This document shows positions 26,870-36,749 of a DNA stretch of 64,000 nt, piece by piece. This DNA is from Bdellovibrionota bacterium (GTDB taxonomy: Bacteria > Bdellovibrionota > UBA1018 > CAUJDS01). Below the pieces are notes generated by a model that was not told the origin of the DNA, searched no databases, and saw only the letters and a program-made list of their open reading frames with translations. Position numbers and translations under genes: made by a program. Numbering within the stretch: the stretch's first letter is position 1; each line of letters starts with the position of its first letter. The DNA lies in contig CAUJDS010000060.1 of NCBI GenBank assembly GCA_963169695.1, positions 1 to 64,000 on the forward strand, in the 5' to 3' direction.

Positions 26870-28114
26870 CTACTTCACGGGGCGCTTCACGAGGAAGCCC
26901 TCCTCAATCCAGACTTCTTTAAGGTATTTGACGATGGTGAGTGCTGCTTCCTTTTCTTTGAGGCTGCTGACTCGGGCATGGGCAATCATTTCGACCGGTT
27001 TTCCGTCGGTGGTGACCGTAAAGACGTCTAGGCTTTCACCCAGGGTGACGCCGTCGTCTTTGCCTTTATCGATCTTGATCATCTGAAAGCGATCATTGAC
27101 TCGTTGCACGCGCGCTTCGAGAGGGTAGTATTCGACGAATTCCTTTTTGTCGTCAGCTTTGGGGTCTTTGGAAAAGCGGTTTTTCTTATCCTTGCCCCAA
27201 AGTTGAAGGCTGACTCCGCCGCCAACTTGCCACCCATTGGGAGCGTTGGTTCCCCAGAGTCCTTTGGCATAGTGAGCACTGAATCGAAAGGTCTCAGAAA
27301 TATCGTAGGCCGCTTCTACTCGTAGCGTGATGAGAGATGGGTCGCGTACGCCTACGGCACAGCTGTCGTTTCCGAGATTGCCGAAGCACGGATTCTGAGT
27401 CGAAAGTGCGCTCGTCTTCGTGGTCAAGGAATGAAAGCCGTAGACCATGGCATTCAAATTGAGGCCGGAGACAAGTCCATTTAACTGAAGGCCCGTCGAC
27501 CAAGGAATGCCGTGAGAGTAGTCGTCCGTACGATAACGAAATCCCGATCCGCCCGAGAGCCGCAAACTTCTCACGGAGTCCTCAATAATAGGGATGGCGA
27601 GAAAGGCGCCCGCTGTTCCTTCGTGAATGCCTTCTCCTAGGGCTGGGGCTGCACCAGTAATGGAATAAGCCGGAAACTCCCACTGAAATTGCAGATTGGC
27701 TTCGATTCCACTTTTGGATTTCAGCAAAAACCAATTCAAGCCTACCGTTTGATCTGCGAGTCCCGTTTTGTCGCCGGTTTTGGCAGCTGTTGTGTTCTCA
27801 GTAGAAACGCGTGCAAAGGATAGCCGCCCATAGATCGTCCAATCGGTCCAAAGCACAAACTTGGCGTCCACATCCAGCATCGAGCGCGTGTAATTCTGAA
27901 ACCCGGTGCTTGTCACCAAATTTCCGGTGGATCCATAGTTGGAGGTGGATCGGTAGTAAGAAAAGCTCGGAGCCAATTCTACTCCTTCGAGCGTGTGCCT
28001 TTCGTCTTTCCAGGGATGGAAGAGAGAATCCGCTTGAGCATAGGATCCCACCAGTCCAAGGACCAATCCCAAGAGCACTAACTGATTTGCTTTTTTTAAC
28101 GCGTTCAACCTCAC
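26870..28114 (-). CDS. Outer-membrane-type protein with C-terminal FlgT_C-like domain
   Basis: A 414-residue exported protein; the signal peptide is LVLLGLVLGLVGSYAQA. The central 250 residues read as a beta-barrel with many aromatic and Gly residues and end near VGGGVSLQLWG. A separate C-terminal domain of about 80 residues carries a V-x-x-V, I-x-ID-x-G-x-x-DGV-x-x-G-x-x-L-x-VF pattern, similar to FlgT C-terminal-type domains; this is an inference from pattern. Start codon uncertain (GTG 28114, or TTG 28108); no ATG is near. Confidence 0.65.
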   Translation of the reverse strand: MRLNALKKANQLVLLGLVLGLVGSYAQADSLFHPWKDERHTLEGVELAPSFSYYRSTSNYGSTGNLVTSTGFQNYTRSMLDVDAKFVLWTDWTIYGRLSFARVSTENTTAAKTGDKTGLADQTVGLNWFLLKSKSGIEANLQFQWEFPAYSITGAAPALGEGIHEGTAGAFLAIPIIEDSVRSLRLSGGSGFRYRTDDYSHGIPWSTGLQLNGLVSGLNLNAMVYGFHSLTTKTSALSTQNPCFGNLGNDSCAVGVRDPSLITLRVEAAYDISETFRFSAHYAKGLWGTNAPNGWQVGGGVSLQLWGKDKKNRFSKDPKADDKKEFVEYYPLEARVQRVNDRFQMIKIDKGKDDGVTLGESLDVFTVTTDGKPVEMIAHARVSSLKEKEAALTIVKYLKEVWIEEGFLVKRPVK

Positions 28115-28250
28115 ACCTCAGCCAAGATTCTAGCACGATTTTTTTGGGATGCTATTGCGAGGAGCGTGCCATTTCTTAGGTTTGGTGCAATGGGCCATGA
28201 TCGACGTGTGGTATGACCGAAGATTACATAGAGAAAAGGAAATAAAGCCC

Positions 28251-30542
28251 ATGGATTTACATGATGACGCGCTCGAATACCATTCAATGGGTCGTAAAGG
28301 CAAAATCGAAGTAATCTCTTCCAAGCCAGTGCTCACTTCTCGCGACTTGTCTCTGGCCTATTCGCCTGGAGTCGCCGAGCCCTGTCGCATGATTGCAGAA
28401 AAAGATGAGCTTGTTTACGAATACACGACGAAGGGCAACCTTGTGGCCGTGGTCTCCAACGGAACAGCCGTCCTAGGTCTTGGAGACATTGGTCCCCATG
28501 CCGCCAAGCCAGTGATGGAAGGAAAAGGAATCCTTTTCAAGAAATTTGCGGACATAGATGTCTTTGATATTGAGCTCAATGCCAAAGACCCGGAAGATGT
28601 TATTCGCGCTTGTGTCTATATGGAGCCGACGTTTGGCGGGATCAACCTTGAAGACATCAAGGCTCCCGAGTGTTTCTACATTGAAGAAGAACTGAAGAAG
28701 CGACTCAAGATTCCTGTATTTCATGATGACCAACACGGTACAGCCGTCATCAGCGCTGCTGCTTTTTTGAACGCGCTTGAGCTTGTTGGCAAAAAAATGG
28801 ATGAAGTCAAAGTCGTATTTTCTGGTGGCGGCGCGGCCGCTATTGCTTGCGCGCAACTCTACTGCGATTTGGGCGTAAAGAAAGAAAACGTGCTTATGGC
28901 CGATTCTAAGGGCGTCATCTATCACGGCAGAAAAGAAGGAATGAATCCCTACAAAGAGCGTTTTGCTACCAACGGCCCGCAGAGAACCTTAGCCGAAGCA
29001 ATGCAAGGTGCGGATGCATTTATTGGAGTTTCGGTCAAAGGTTTGGTCACGCAAGCCATGGTCAAGTCCATGAATCGAGATCCGATTATTTTTGCGATGG
29101 CCAATCCCGATCCAGAAATTCTGCCAGAACAAGTCAAAGAAGTTCGTGACGACGCCATCATGGCGACGGGGCGATCGGATTATCCCAATCAGGTCAATAA
29201 TGTGCTGGGGTTTCCTTTTATTTTTCGAGGCGCACTCGACACAAGGGCTACCTCCATCAATCAAGAGATGAAGTTGGCTGCAGTCAAGGCGCTTGCTCAG
29301 CTCGCCAAAGAACCGGCGCACGAAAGTGTGGCACGCGCCTATGGAGGAAAGCGGTTTTATTTTGGGAGAGAGTACCTTATTCCGACCCCCTTTGATCAGC
29401 GTGCTTTGATTTGGGTGGCGAGTGCTGTTGCCGAAGCTGCAATGAAATCCGGCGTCGCACGTCGTAAGATTGATTTGGATCGCTACAAAGAAAAACTCGA
29501 GAGCCTATTGGGATCTGCCTATACGGTGATGCGCGAGATCAAGAATCGTGTCAAAGAATACGGCGAACTCAATAAGAAGCTGGCGAAATTGGTGTTTCCA
29601 GAAGGTGAGAATCTCAAGATCCTTCGGGCCGCTCAGGTTTTGCGTGAAGAGGGATTTGCAGAGCCCATTTTACTCGGAGATGCCCAGATCATTGCAGAAC
29701 GGATTGAGCGCAATGGCCTCAGCCAGGTACTCAAGGATGTGGTCATCATCGATCCTCATAAGAGTACGCACCGTGAGGAATTTGCGCAGCGCTTTTATGA
29801 AAAGCGTCAACGCAAAGGCGCTACCTTGCGATCCGCTAAGACCTTGATGGGTGATCCCAATTTCTTCGGATCGATGCTGGTAGAGCAAGGGCTGGCCGAC
29901 GGATTGGTGGGTGGCGTGGCACAGTCATATCCCGAAACCATTCGTCCAGCGCTTCAAGTCGTAGGGCATCGAGAAGGATCCTTGTTGGTGGGGATTTATC
30001 TCATCATTGCTAAGAAGAAGGTTTATCTTTTTGCGGACACGACGGTGAATATCGATCCGAGTGCTGAGGTGCTTGCCGACATTGCGCTTCAAACGGCGGA
30101 AGTTGCCAAGACCCATTTCAATATGGATCCGCGTGTGGCGCTTCTCTCCTTTTCTAACTTTGGATCGGTCAATCACCCCACAGCTCAGAAAGTTCGAGAC
30201 GCATTGGATATTATTCGGGAAAAAAATCCACAACTCATGGTCGACGGAGAAATGCATGCGGATACTGCAGTGGTGCCAGAGATTTCGGAAGAGAACTTTC
30301 CATTCAACAAGGTACCAGGCAATGCCAATATTCTGATCTTTCCTGATTTGCAGTCCGGCAATATTGCTTACAAGTTGATCTCAAGGATGGGTGAAGCAGA
30401 AGCGATTGGGCCAATCCTTTCGGGAATGAAGAAGCCCGTGTATGTCTTGCAACGCGGGTCTGGAATCAACGATATCGCCAATATGGCCGCCCTCTGCGCC
30501 TTACGAGTTCAGCAGCGTGCGCTGCGAGATCGCTCGACCTGA
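28251..30542 (+). CDS. maeB: NADP-dependent malic enzyme with phosphotransacetylase-like domain
   Basis: Oxidative decarboxylation of malate to pyruvate (763 residues). The malic N-terminal and NAD-binding domains are seen in [36 protein letters not shown] and [16 protein letters not shown]. The C-terminal 330 residues resemble phosphate acetyltransferase ([39 protein letters not shown]) and usually play a regulatory role in this family. The start at 28251 follows AAAAGGAAATAAAGCCC and matches the family N-terminus [11 protein letters not shown]; open frame to 28149 is not used. It appears monocistronic. Confidence 0.95.
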
Positions 30543-30575: not shown

Positions 30576-33500
30576 TTATTTTTTTTGATTGAGCTCGATC
30601 AACTCAGCCTTTTTTGCTTCGTGCAACTGAAGGGCGTGGAGTCCCTGCAGGCGTTGCTTTGCTCGTGCAATCCTAGGGAGAAGCCAAGCTTGGTCAGGCG
30701 TCGACTGGACGGTGCTTTCGAGTGGTTCAAAGAAGGATTTTAGAATGTTTAGGTAGTTGAGCGAAGGATGAAGGCTCTGCTCGCTAGTGAGTCGATCCAA
30801 TGAAACTTCCAAAGCGGTAATAAGATTGGCGTTGGTAGGAGCCTTTGGAGCCCAAGAGGTGTGGATCTGTTCGCATCCCTCTATGCTGAATTCAGTAAGC
30901 AGGTTCAAAACGCCAGATGAAGCTCGACCACTAGAAGAGAATCGGGTGTTTTGGAGGATTTTCTCCATCTCGGCTCGTGTCCATTCCCTGCTCCGCCAGG
31001 CATAAGATTGGACAGTCCAAGGCGAAAGCCGGCTGAATCGATGGGACTCATAGTGTGGGTCGGCCTCATTTTGATCATGATACTTCGCTACAGCCTCCCA
31101 AAATTTCGGATGGTCAATAAGTCGATAGTCATAGACAAATTCATCTGCAAGTTTCAGGAATGTCAATGCAGTACTCACAAAGCTATTTGGATACCAAGGT
31201 GCCGTTGGAGTCGTTCCTGAGCGCAGGGTGCTATCCAACATCCAGTCAATGGGTAGATCTCTTGGAGAAAGCCTGGGCAAAGCCCTTGTCAAAACCCTTG
31301 TCAAAACTCTAAAGACATCATGTTCTCTGAAGCCTTCTTGTTCATTGACCAAAAACATCAGCGCATAGAACTCACCCGCTGTCTTGAGTGGCAAGCTTTG
31401 AAATCTCTGAAGGCGGATCTCACAATCTTTCTCAGTCTTTGCTCTCCAAAGCACCGATGGGTCGGACTTAAACAGCTGGGCCTCCCAGGGTTCGATTTTT
31501 ACCCGCGCTTTTTTTGGCTCCCTATTGGGGCGATCATAAAGTGCTAAGAGGGATACCCCGGATTGAAGGATCCTATCGATCCATTGATTCTTTTGGTCCG
31601 AGTTTAATTCAGCAAAGCCCATTTTGAAGGTTTGGCCGATTGCTTCAGCGGTGTTTTGCTTTCCGAGATTCTGGGTGCGCCCTTCTACTAGCTGATCAGC
31701 CCATTCGGCGAGCGAGTTGAGGTACCTTGTATCATTGGCTACTTGTTCGCGATTTAAGCGGCCATTGTTGGCAGCGCCTTTTGAAGTGATCAATTGCTTT
31801 ATTGCATCAATGATCGGTACACGCACTGGAAGCGGAAGCACTGGCTTGCCACTTTTGTCATCGGCAAACTCTATCTCTAAGAATTCCTGGCTTCGCTCCC
31901 AATCTTCGGCAGTTAGTGTGAGACCGCTTCGAGAATAGTTCTTCAAGGATTTGGATCCAAAGCGAATCAAGAGAGCGTAGGAGGCAGAACTCGATGGATT
32001 CTTTTCATTCCAATCTGCGACCTGATCCCAGAGCGCGCTATTCCTATCATCATTAACCCAAATCAGTGTCTCAACCAGGGGTGAAAGGGGCCAAACATTT
32101 CCGGCTGAATCAAGATCCAATAGTTCGAGATAGGCCTGTAGCATTTTCCAGGTCCATCGGTTCGAGGCTCTATTGGTTTTTGCAATAGAGTGAATAACTT
32201 CTCTCATTGCAGTTCTAGCAGCCTTAACATTTGAGTTTTCGTACGATCCAATATCAAATTTAGAAATAATTTCCGGTAGCGTTGCTAGTGTGTCCAAAAT
32301 ATATTTCTCAGCTCTTTCAGGGTCACGATGGAATTTCAGCATTTCTATAAGCAAGGATAGTTCCTTCTCTTCCGAAGCTACCGATTCAAAGATTGGGTCC
32401 GTATCGGAGGCCTTAGCATTTGCAAGGTGGCTAGCCAGTCTTGAGAGTTCGTCCAATTGAGATGAGGTTTCTGATTCGAGCTTTTCCACCCAAGAAGTGT
32501 TCTCTAGTGCCAAGATTACTGCACCAACTTTTTTGCCGCTGAATAAATCCAGTAATATCGATCTAGAACTCTCAGGTCCTTTGGCAAATTCGGACTTAGG
32601 ATTTGCTTTCTCAAACTCATAGGCCGACTGAAACTCATGCGCAAGTACCTCTAAGGCAGAGGGCTCTACCTCTTCTCTGGCAAGGTAGGACCTTCTCAAG
32701 TAGCGGCGGAATCGTGGATTCTTGCTTGTAAGAAGGATGGGGTCCTTGAGCGATTGGTAGTGTGCAAAGATCTCTCGGGTTGAAAGGGCCGGAAATTCCT
32801 TGGCTGTCTTTGTTGTGTTCCCTTTCGAGCTCCACAGGACGTGTTTGTTGTCCATGGAAAGTTGACAAACAAGAGGGTGATCTGTTTGATCAAAGCAGTG
32901 CTGCTCTCCTTGATTCATCCTTCCTATTTCAGTGACACCGCGAAGCACGGTCCATGCGTCATTGCCTAGAGCAAGAGTGTCGGAGGTGGAAGCGCCAAAG
33001 ATCTCGATGTCGAGCGAGCTCTCGTACTTTAATGCGGATTCCATCGCATGAATGGCGGAACCTGCGTGGCAGGCATTAAGATAGAGCCGAATCTTAATTC
33101 CGTCTCGGGCTGCTTGGACAATGGGAGTTACGAAGGCTTCATAATCTACTCTCTGCTGGTAGTCGGGGAAAAAATTGTTTCCTATCGATAGGCAATTGTT
33201 GTCCCCGTGAGCGTCAATTGCGATAACGAGGGTGGGATTTTCAGCTTTAAGTAACTTCTGGCTGGTTTCCCATATGGCTTGATCAAAGGTAGGACGCTTC
33301 GTTGCAACCATGGAAGCTCGCGTCTCTTCAGGGCGTTCAGGATCGAGGAAGGGGTCATCTTTGGATTGGATGTAAGCAAGGAGACTTAATTTTGCTCTAT
33401 AATCCACCGCGCTCCATGTACCGAGGTCGATCCAGTTTTCTTTCGGGATCTTAAATATTCCGTTCTCACCACAAAAAGTGAGCTCCTGATAGCCCAGGGC

Positions 33501-33653
33501 TGCTTCACGAAAATCCTTTCGGTCAAAGTGTGTCACCCAGCCAATGCCCGCAATATTGCTCTGGTCGCTAGGTTGCTGCGCAAAAGCAGATAGACCCATT
33601 CCGAGTGCTAAAAGGCTCAGATAACACGGTCGAATCAGTAAACGGGTGATCAT
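30576..33653 (-). CDS. Exported clan-CD (caspase/legumain-like) peptidase with long C-terminal region
   Basis: A 1025-residue protein with a signal peptide (RPCYLSLLALGMGLSAFA). The first 250 mature residues fit a caspase-like fold: a hydrophobic strand ending in His (TLVIAIDAHGD, His149) and a second strand ending in NACHAGSA (Cys195), the His-Gly/Ala-Cys-x-x-Gly dyad pattern of clan CD peptidases. The remaining 750 residues are mostly helical with no domain I can name; one stretch is Trp/Arg-rich. ATG 33653 is chosen; TTG 33662 is an alternative. No pro-domain or metacaspase p10 segment is obvious. Substrate and role are unknown. Confidence 0.65.
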   Translation of the reverse strand: MITRLLIRPCYLSLLALGMGLSAFAQQPSDQSNIAGIGWVTHFDRKDFREAALGYQELTFCGENGIFKIPKENWIDLGTWSAVDYRAKLSLLAYIQSKDDPFLDPERPEETRASMVATKRPTFDQAIWETSQKLLKAENPTLVIAIDAHGDNNCLSIGNNFFPDYQQRVDYEAFVTPIVQAARDGIKIRLYLNACHAGSAIHAMESALKYESSLDIEIFGASTSDTLALGNDAWTVLRGVTEIGRMNQGEQHCFDQTDHPLVCQLSMDNKHVLWSSKGNTTKTAKEFPALSTREIFAHYQSLKDPILLTSKNPRFRRYLRRSYLAREEVEPSALEVLAHEFQSAYEFEKANPKSEFAKGPESSRSILLDLFSGKKVGAVILALENTSWVEKLESETSSQLDELSRLASHLANAKASDTDPIFESVASEEKELSLLIEMLKFHRDPERAEKYILDTLATLPEIISKFDIGSYENSNVKAARTAMREVIHSIAKTNRASNRWTWKMLQAYLELLDLDSAGNVWPLSPLVETLIWVNDDRNSALWDQVADWNEKNPSSSASYALLIRFGSKSLKNYSRSGLTLTAEDWERSQEFLEIEFADDKSGKPVLPLPVRVPIIDAIKQLITSKGAANNGRLNREQVANDTRYLNSLAEWADQLVEGRTQNLGKQNTAEAIGQTFKMGFAELNSDQKNQWIDRILQSGVSLLALYDRPNREPKKARVKIEPWEAQLFKSDPSVLWRAKTEKDCEIRLQRFQSLPLKTAGEFYALMFLVNEQEGFREHDVFRVLTRVLTRALPRLSPRDLPIDWMLDSTLRSGTTPTAPWYPNSFVSTALTFLKLADEFVYDYRLIDHPKFWEAVAKYHDQNEADPHYESHRFSRLSPWTVQSYAWRSREWTRAEMEKILQNTRFSSSGRASSGVLNLLTEFSIEGCEQIHTSWAPKAPTNANLITALEVSLDRLTSEQSLHPSLNYLNILKSFFEPLESTVQSTPDQAWLLPRIARAKQRLQGLHALQLHEAKKAELIELNQKK

Positions 33654-33776
33654 AGCGGCCAAGTCTCCAAAAAAACTTCTCTCTCATATATAGGGATGGC
33701 AAAGGGTGGACCATAGAAATCGTTTTTAAATTTAATGCCTTAGGAGATTCTAAGTGTTGAGTAAATGCGTTTTACG

Positions 33777-33800
33777 GACAGCTGTCTAATCTTTAGACAG
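33777..33800. promoter_or_regulatory. Overlapping palindromes, probable operator
   Basis: Two dyads share bases: GACAGCTGTC (33777-33786, perfect 10-base palindrome) and CTGTCTAA-tct-TTAGACAG (33782-33800, perfect 8-base arms, 3-base centre). They lie about 75-95 bases upstream of the ATPase start and next to the repeated units at 33819-33873. The shared GACAG half-site suggests several binding sites for one regulator. Confidence 0.6.
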
Positions 33801-33818
33801 GTAAAAGGGCATCTGCAT

Positions 33819-33873
33819 AAAATGGACAATAGTCCGCTTTACACACGCCTAAAATGGACTATACTCTACTTTA
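33819..33873 (+). promoter_or_regulatory. Promoter with two helically phased 23-bp repeats
   Basis: Two copies of a 23-base unit (33819-33841 and 33851-33873, 19 of 23 identical) start 32 bases apart, three helical turns. The unit begins AAAATGGAC and ends CTTTA; the first copy carries a GGACAATAGTCC dyad. A promoter fits exactly: TTTACA (33838-33843), 16-base spacer, TATACT (33860-33865). The predicted start site is about 33872-33873, the A of the likely ATG, so the transcript may be leaderless. The second unit overlaps the -10, so a bound regulator would block transcription. Confidence 0.6.
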
Positions 33874-35012
33874 TGCATGATCGTTCAAAGACGTTCCGCC
33901 GAGCTGTTTTAGAAGCACTGGAGAAGAAGATTGTGTTCGTAGCCGGGCCAAGGCAGGTGGGTAAAACGACGTTCTCGCTCTCTCTATTAGGTTCCTCAGC
34001 TACCGAGCAGCATCCGGCCTATCGCAATTGGGATCGGCCTCAGGTGGCCAAGGAATTGCGAGATGGAAAATTGCCGTCCAATCAAAAGCTCATTGTTCTT
34101 GATGAAATTCACAAATACGCGCGATGGAGAAATCTCATTAAGGGTTTCTATGACACTGAGAAATCTCGGCATCAGTTTTTAGTAACAGGATCTGCGCGCC
34201 TGGACTATTATCGAAAGGGTGGAGACTCTTTAGTCAATCGCTATCGGCTCTTTCGGCTGCATCCTTTTAGTCTGATGGAGATGAGCAAGGATCCGTCAGA
34301 TCAAGACCTACAAGACCTATTGAAGTTTAGCGGCTTCCCCGAGCCGCTCTTTAGTCGGAGTGAATCGGATTGGAGAATTTGGCAACGTGATCGGGTCTCG
34401 AGAGTGGTACGCGAAGACCTTAGAGATCTAGAGCAGGTTAGAGAAATATCCTTGATCGAGGCATTGGTGGAGCTTCTTCCGAGTAAAGTGGGATCGCCGC
34501 TTTCGATCAAGAGCCTTCGTGAAGATCTAAATGTCGATCACAAGACCGTCGAACGATGGGTCCATGCTTTAGAGAATCTCTACCTCTGTTTCCGAATAGC
34601 GCCCTTTGGGGCTCCTAAGGTTCGCGCTGTTAAGAAGGAGAAAAAGCTCTATCTTTGGGATTGGTCGATGGTGCCTGATGCCGGTCCAAGGTTCGAGAAT
34701 TTGGTCGCTTCCCAGCTTTTAAAGTACTGCCATTGGATCGAGGACACTGAGGGCCGTGTCATGGAGCTTAGGTTCCTGAGAGACTCGATGAAGCGGGAAG
34801 TGGATTTTGTTGTCATCCAGGACAAAAAGCCCATTTTTGCTGTCGAATGTAAGACAGGCGACGTCGCTGTGAGTCCTGCTTTGCGGTACTTCTCAGAAAG
34901 AACCCCTATTCCAAAGTACTTTCAGGTCCATCAAAGAACTGCGGACTTCTCAACCGGAAAGATCCGCGTTCTTCCGTTCATTCAATTCTGTAAGGAAATG
35001 GATATGCCTTAG
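33873..35012 (+). CDS. AAA_14/DUF4143 family ATPase
   Basis: A 379-residue ATPase of the AAA_14 plus DUF4143 type. Walker A is GPRQVGKTT near residue 24; Walker B is KLIVLDEIHKYARW; a sensor-like FLVTGSARLDYYRKGGDSLVNRY follows. The C-terminal half is DUF4143 with a PD-(D/E)xK-like element (REVDFVVIQDKKPIFAVECK). The family's cellular role is poorly known. ATG 33873 coincides with the predicted transcript start; an in-frame ATG at 33822 would have to read through the repeats. A remnant of a relative lies downstream at 35174. Confidence 0.85.
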   Translation: MHDRSKTFRRAVLEALEKKIVFVAGPRQVGKTTFSLSLLGSSATEQHPAYRNWDRPQVAKELRDGKLPSNQKLIVLDEIHKYARWRNLIKGFYDTEKSRHQFLVTGSARLDYYRKGGDSLVNRYRLFRLHPFSLMEMSKDPSDQDLQDLLKFSGFPEPLFSRSESDWRIWQRDRVSRVVREDLRDLEQVREISLIEALVELLPSKVGSPLSIKSLREDLNVDHKTVERWVHALENLYLCFRIAPFGAPKVRAVKKEKKLYLWDWSMVPDAGPRFENLVASQLLKYCHWIEDTEGRVMELRFLRDSMKREVDFVVIQDKKPIFAVECKTGDVAVSPALRYFSERTPIPKYFQVHQRTADFSTGKIRVLPFIQFCKEMDMP

Positions 35013-36383: not shown

Positions 36384-36749
36384 ATGACCGATCTCAAAAC
36401 AACTTTGCACGAACAAGCGGTTGCGCTCTCAAAGAAGTACCTCGCGTGTGAGAAGGAACTTTTTGAAGTCCTTTCTCAGATCGATGCCAAGAAGGTTTAT
36501 CTCCACCAAGGTTATGGAAGTCTTACGGAGTACGCGCAGAAGGCGCTTGGACTTTCTCGTGATGTGACTTGGAATCTGGTGACGATTGTTCATCGGTCCA
36601 AGGAAGTGCCGGAGATCAAGCAAGCCGTGCAAACTGGAAGCTTGCCGCTCAGCAAAGCCCGCCAGATCGCGACGCATATCACAAGGGAGAATTCTCAGAA
36701 GTTCATTGCGATGGCTCAAGAGCTTCCTAGGGAGAAGCCAGTCTTTTGA
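36384..36749 (+). pseudogene. Truncated HNH-family protein (N-terminal region only)
   Basis: A 121-residue reading frame related to the N-terminal helical region of the HNH protein at 384-1457. Both show a run resembling GY-x-SL-x-EYA-x-K-x-LG, then PE-I/A-x-x-A/T-x-x-x-G-x-L-x-LS-x-A-x-x-I-x-x-x-I-x-x-EN. It ends 10 residues later with no HNH domain, and I found no obvious continuation in another frame. AAAGGAA precedes the ATG, so it may still be expressed. It is either a truncated pseudogene or a short stand-alone relative. Confidence 0.6.

Follow-up and report, generated by a model that had tools for sequence, protein, structure and literature searches.

The open reading frame at positions 30576 to 33653 on the reverse strand of the window (the whole 64,000-nucleotide stretch of DNA analysed here) encodes an exported caspase-like protein of 1,025 residues, P0001, which is probably a Sec-exported cysteine peptidase of clan CD. 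It belongs, as a divergent member, to a Bdellovibrionota family and has a C-terminal tail that may take the place of a partner protein. Members of this family normally have a tail and a small partner gene, and P0001 is unusual in two respects, the length of its tail and its solitary gene. What the initial annotation observed is confirmed; its interpretation, an exported caspase-like peptidase of a rare type, is partly supported, being right on the fold and wrong on the rarity.

The reading frame runs for 1,025 codons from an ATG at 33653, the same extent as initially annotated, and a ribosome-binding site, GGAGA (33664..33668, reverse strand), can be read in the sequence 10 nt 5' of the ATG. 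The alternative start, a TTG 3 codons upstream, would overlap GGAGA. Because the third-position GC (0.48) and the total GC of P0001 agree with those of the adjoining genes, it is taken to be a native gene. The gene is monocistronic and, as had been remarked, stands alone; it is flanked by a malic enzyme-phosphotransacetylase gene (maeB-pta; 28149..30542, forward strand), which is convergent with it across a gap of 33 nt, and by the gene of an AAA_14/DUF4143 ATPase (33765..35012, forward strand), which is divergent from it across a gap of 111 nt. Both neighbors were assigned by Pfam and lie outside the system. There is no small gene on either side of P0001, and the flanking gaps leave no room for a partner. 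Elsewhere in the window, positions 26870 to 28114 (reverse strand) encode an exported protein of 414 aa that lacks a Pfam match and may be an outer-membrane barrel followed by a soluble part at its C-terminus, and positions 36384 to 36749 (forward strand) hold a short ORF without a Pfam match, possibly a remnant, which resembles the start of HNH-type proteins common in Bdellovibrionota.

By eye, the N-terminus of P0001 (MITRLLIRPCYLSLLALGMGLSAFA|QQ) is a typical Sec signal peptide; residues 1 to 25 (33579..33653, reverse strand) contain two Arg residues, a hydrophobic core, and an AxA site, with predicted cleavage after AFA and no lipobox, so that the earlier proposal of export is supported. 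The caspase-like domain spans approximately residues 34 to 270 (32844..33554, reverse strand), as delimited by the hhalign alignment of residues 11 to 234 with the divergent family profile and by predicted alternating strands and helices. The dyad that had been read as His-Gly and Ala-Cys-x-x-Gly is present as His149-Gly150 and Ala194-Cys195-His-Ala-Gly198, and the codons of the predicted catalytic His149 (33207..33209, reverse strand) and Cys195 (33069..33071, reverse strand) align with the invariant His and Cys of the family. In clan CD peptidases, the His precedes the Cys and a Gly adjoins the His (PMC4357240), a definition that P0001 fits with H149-G150 and C195 on the invariant family positions. 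In caspase-7, the residue 2 before the Cys helps to form the S1 pocket (Gln184 with Cys186; PMC4357240); the equivalent residue in P0001 is Asn193, and the P1 preference is therefore not predictable. As a DNA pattern, NACHxG occurs a single time in the 2.79 Mb genome. In relatives, the pattern was rejected as a marker, since the other in-frame matches there are cytochrome-like or lie in spurious reading frames.

Direct searches with P0001 gave no sequence match in Pfam, NCBIfam, PADLOC, or the PDB. Against Peptidase_C14, the protein lies below the curated cut-off, with no match even at an E value of 10, and its own genome has zero Peptidase_C14 matches. Tblastn with the whole protein or the N-terminal domain found chance matches only in 58 genomes of the class, 369 genomes of the phylum, phages, and plasmids, and the same was true of GTDB contigs searched by tblastn and of GTDB genomes scanned for the pattern. 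Close relatives may have been missed because the GTDB family of the host consists, in the search set, of this genome alone. The general C14 profile scored 24.9 against the P0001 domain, barely above shuffled sequences (23.0) and too weak to decide; the link to clan CD accordingly runs through the Bdellovibrionota family.

That family came to light in a Peptidase_C14 search of the phylum, which led to proteins that combine a signal peptide and a caspase-like domain with a long tail. With one member (L059) as a single query, matches were found in 65 of 359 phylum genomes, at up to four copies per genome, and the named carriers include Bacteriovoracaceae and Bdellovibrio bacteriovorus kdesi. Caspase-like proteins that are exported and tailed are thus common in Bdellovibrionota, contrary to the initial supposition that they are unusual; possible signal peptides have been noted earlier on many bacterial caspase homologues (PMC3501461). 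The dyad is invariant among the aligned family sequences (His in 62/62, Cys in 63/63), and in the PDB the family profile matches GSU0716, yeast metacaspase-1, and Arabidopsis metacaspase-4 best, with E values of 0.001-0.003 and both His and Cys aligned. The relatives are poorly covered by the Peptidase_C14 and C13 models, which match 4 and 7 of 48 members, respectively. The open-access literature searched contained no description of the family or of its partner pair, and no Bdellovibrio caspase-like proteins were found there. The family is a large and apparently undescribed set of caspase-like (clan CD) proteins spread across Bdellovibrionota. Other exported Peptidase_C14 proteins of the phylum (L050 and L053, from the same order, as well as L043 and L046) carry different long tails, and those of L050 and L053 have many repeated 'GAQIG'-like motifs and may end in a membrane barrel.

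Profile comparison places the N-terminal domain of P0001 within this family as a divergent member. When a profile of 64 family members was aligned with the domain by hhalign, the E value was 2.4e-6 (probability 89 percent, score 48.7), and H149 and C195 coincided with the family dyad. The best non-C14 control in this comparison, oL109_-1_811, scored 40.3 and is presumably the remaining portion of a family gene that a stop interrupts at its locus; the next control, which lies outside clan CD and does not look like a piece of a family gene, scored 29.6. With a profile of 28 more divergent members, which belong mostly to the class of the P0001 host, the score was 58.5 (E 1.1e-6; 186 columns aligned), and none of ~400 controls exceeded 25.6. 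HMMER profiles built without P0001 scored it at 10 bits in round 1 and at 14-18 bits (E 4e-5 to 4e-4) in rounds 2-4. Identity between P0001 and the family is only 12-20 percent, and P0001 lacks near-invariant family residues outside the dyad, such as the GGGGEP stretch and the Cys of the strand after the catalytic Cys, which is Glu217 in P0001.

A model of the P0001 domain guided by 26 family sequences from GTDB, which depends on the membership alignment, has a pLDDT of 59 overall and 70-91 in the core. In this model, His149 is predicted at the C-end of strand 141-150 and Cys195 directly after strand 187-194, the placement expected of the initially annotated dyad. Caspases, an asparaginyl ligase, and a CHAT protease account for about half of the 50 best-ranked folds; the E values are no better than 3e-3, von Willebrand domains take the first two ranks, and clan CD first appears at an E value of 5e-3. 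The single-sequence model (pLDDT 39) has the same order of strands and helices in the domain at low confidence, and in it, too, His149 ends one predicted strand and Cys195 lies just past the next. Its own fold matches (importins and designed repeats) were unusable beyond the helical look of the tail. The family profiles, their metacaspase matches in the PDB, and the alignment-guided model together support the earlier proposal of a clan CD-type fold that carries the predicted dyad.

The tail (residues 301-1025; 30579..32753, reverse strand) had been described as about 750 helical residues without a match; the great length and the want of a match stand, and the number is ~725. Beyond approximately residue 290, the low-confidence single-sequence model is almost wholly helical. 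Counted from Cys195, 830 aa follow in P0001, versus at most 403 (median 304) in 77 family members. At the profile level, the tail does not match the tails of the family; no homologue sharing it was found in the searches, its internal repeats are not above shuffles, and a partner protein fused within P0001 was looked for and not found. Longer tails in partner-less family members generally were not supported (P 0.12).

In the family, a partner gene adjoins 75 of 98 distinct protease genes on the same strand, 32 upstream and 43 downstream (profile searches of GTDB loci), and the two reading frames often overlap. Examples are L214:5311-5796, L187:5466-5816, and L194:3624-3971, all on the forward strand. 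The partner protein has a signal peptide and ~100 mature residues with one Cys near each end, and it matches nothing in Pfam and nothing convincingly in the PDB. Beside two of the protease genes (L107 and L186), there are at least two further candidate partner genes, which by eye seem to be divergent versions, and several divergent family members have no partner gene. At L191:673-4581, a same-strand cluster has a pair of partner genes between two caspase-like genes. Across 58 genomes of the class, 16 have protease and partner, 7 protease only, 3 partner only, and 32 neither (Fisher P 1.8e-6), a value that is driven by the same adjacency among related genomes and adds little beyond it. In the genome of P0001, which is 95.6 percent complete, no partner gene was detected at E 0.05. 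Small inhibitor genes lie upstream or downstream of the genes of exported cysteine proteases such as SpeB (with Spi), the staphopains, and the Bacteroides C10 proteases (PMC3462683). Because linked inhibitor genes are established for exported bacterial cysteine proteases, the leading guess is that the partner may be a cognate inhibitor of the family protease; it may alternatively be a chaperone or a substrate.

P0001 shares the signal peptide, the domain, the register of the dyad, and the helical tail with family members such as L214:3971-5311 of Bdellovibrio bacteriovorus kdesi and L187:3941-5452; on the other hand, it differs from the family in the longer tail and in the absence of a partner, of GGGGEP, and of the second conserved Cys. 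The metacaspases (MEROPS C14; GSU0716, 3bij; Yca1, 4f6o; AtMC4, 6w8s) have their strands and helices in the same order around HG and xCxxG, whereas no direct sequence match to P0001 exists. Metacaspases carry an Asp two residues before the Cys, the position that is Asn193 in P0001. As for the legumain/asparaginyl ligase family C13, the fold matches of P0001 include an asparaginyl ligase and some family domains match the C13 model, whereas P0001 itself does not. The likeness to SpeB/Spi, staphopain/staphostatin, and Bacteroides C10/Bfi belongs to the family and not to P0001, and it consists in a protease gene beside a small gene (the Bfi inhibitors have 116-138 aa; PMC3462683). SpeB, staphopain, and the C10 proteases have a papain fold, unlike the caspase-like family, in which inhibition by the partner is only proposed.

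Several other explanations of P0001 have to be weighed. Its caspase-like fold might be catalytically dead and serve as a binding or scaffold protein, which would suit a protein dominated by its tail, with a divergent domain, no partner, and a tail that no relative shares; bacterial caspase homologues are known to include pseudo-enzymes (PMC6426788). Nevertheless, P0001 keeps both catalytic residues and their glycines at such low identity to a family in which the His and Cys never vary, and we regard a dead enzyme as unlikely. P0001 might also be a clan CD peptidase from another branch (C11, C13, or C14) or separately acquired, given the low identity, the missing signature residues, and the fact that Peptidase_C13 and C14 each match some family members. 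In a comparison of the family with the C14 proteins of the phylum, its scores against the family (48.7-58.5) exceed that against C14 (24.9), and it matches best the divergent members, mostly from its own class, and has a native codon composition, which makes such an origin improbable. A coincidental motif in some exported alpha/beta protein unrelated to caspases is very improbable: motifs as short as NACHxG do arise by chance, the matches in other genomes are not proteases, and direct searches for known families in P0001 are empty, yet the alignment, over 76-186 columns, far exceeds ~400-525 real and shuffled controls, and even the single-sequence model puts His149 at the end of one predicted strand and Cys195 just past the next.

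The remaining alternative accepts an active enzyme and concerns the tail. P0001 would be a self-sufficient exported protease used as a weapon or in predation, with a tail that binds prey or surface targets instead of restraining the enzyme. The family does occur in Bdellovibrio and Bacteriovoracaceae, groups to which predators belong, with several paralogues per genome; however, no secretion signal other than Sec is seen in P0001 and nothing marks this organism as a predator, and we give this explanation little credence.

The preferred reading, a Sec-exported clan CD peptidase whose tail replaces the partner, can be put as follows. After removal of the signal peptide, P0001 would act in the periplasm or beyond, where His149 would activate Cys195 to attack a peptide bond in its substrate, a protein of the envelope or from outside the cell. 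Most relatives would be made together with the small exported two-cysteine protein as an inhibitor or chaperone, whereas in P0001 the helical tail would restrain the enzyme or present the substrate, turning a two-gene arrangement into one gene. The modeled tail suggests such a scaffold, which may restrain the enzyme or hold a substrate. The more specific proposal, that the Bdellovibrionota possess an undescribed system of exported caspase-fold proteases and cognate inhibitors for predation or envelope remodelling, in which the tail of P0001 replaces the inhibitor, seems to us doubtful.

Bacterial relatives of caspases have been discussed mostly as cytoplasmic regulators or cell-death proteins. 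That exported ones occur across a phylum noted for predation, often in several copies and usually paired with a small exported protein, points to regulated proteolysis outside the cytoplasm. The wider interest thus lies less in the single gene P0001 than in the exported family and its conserved small partner, for which P0001 offers a natural exception for asking what the partner and the tail do.
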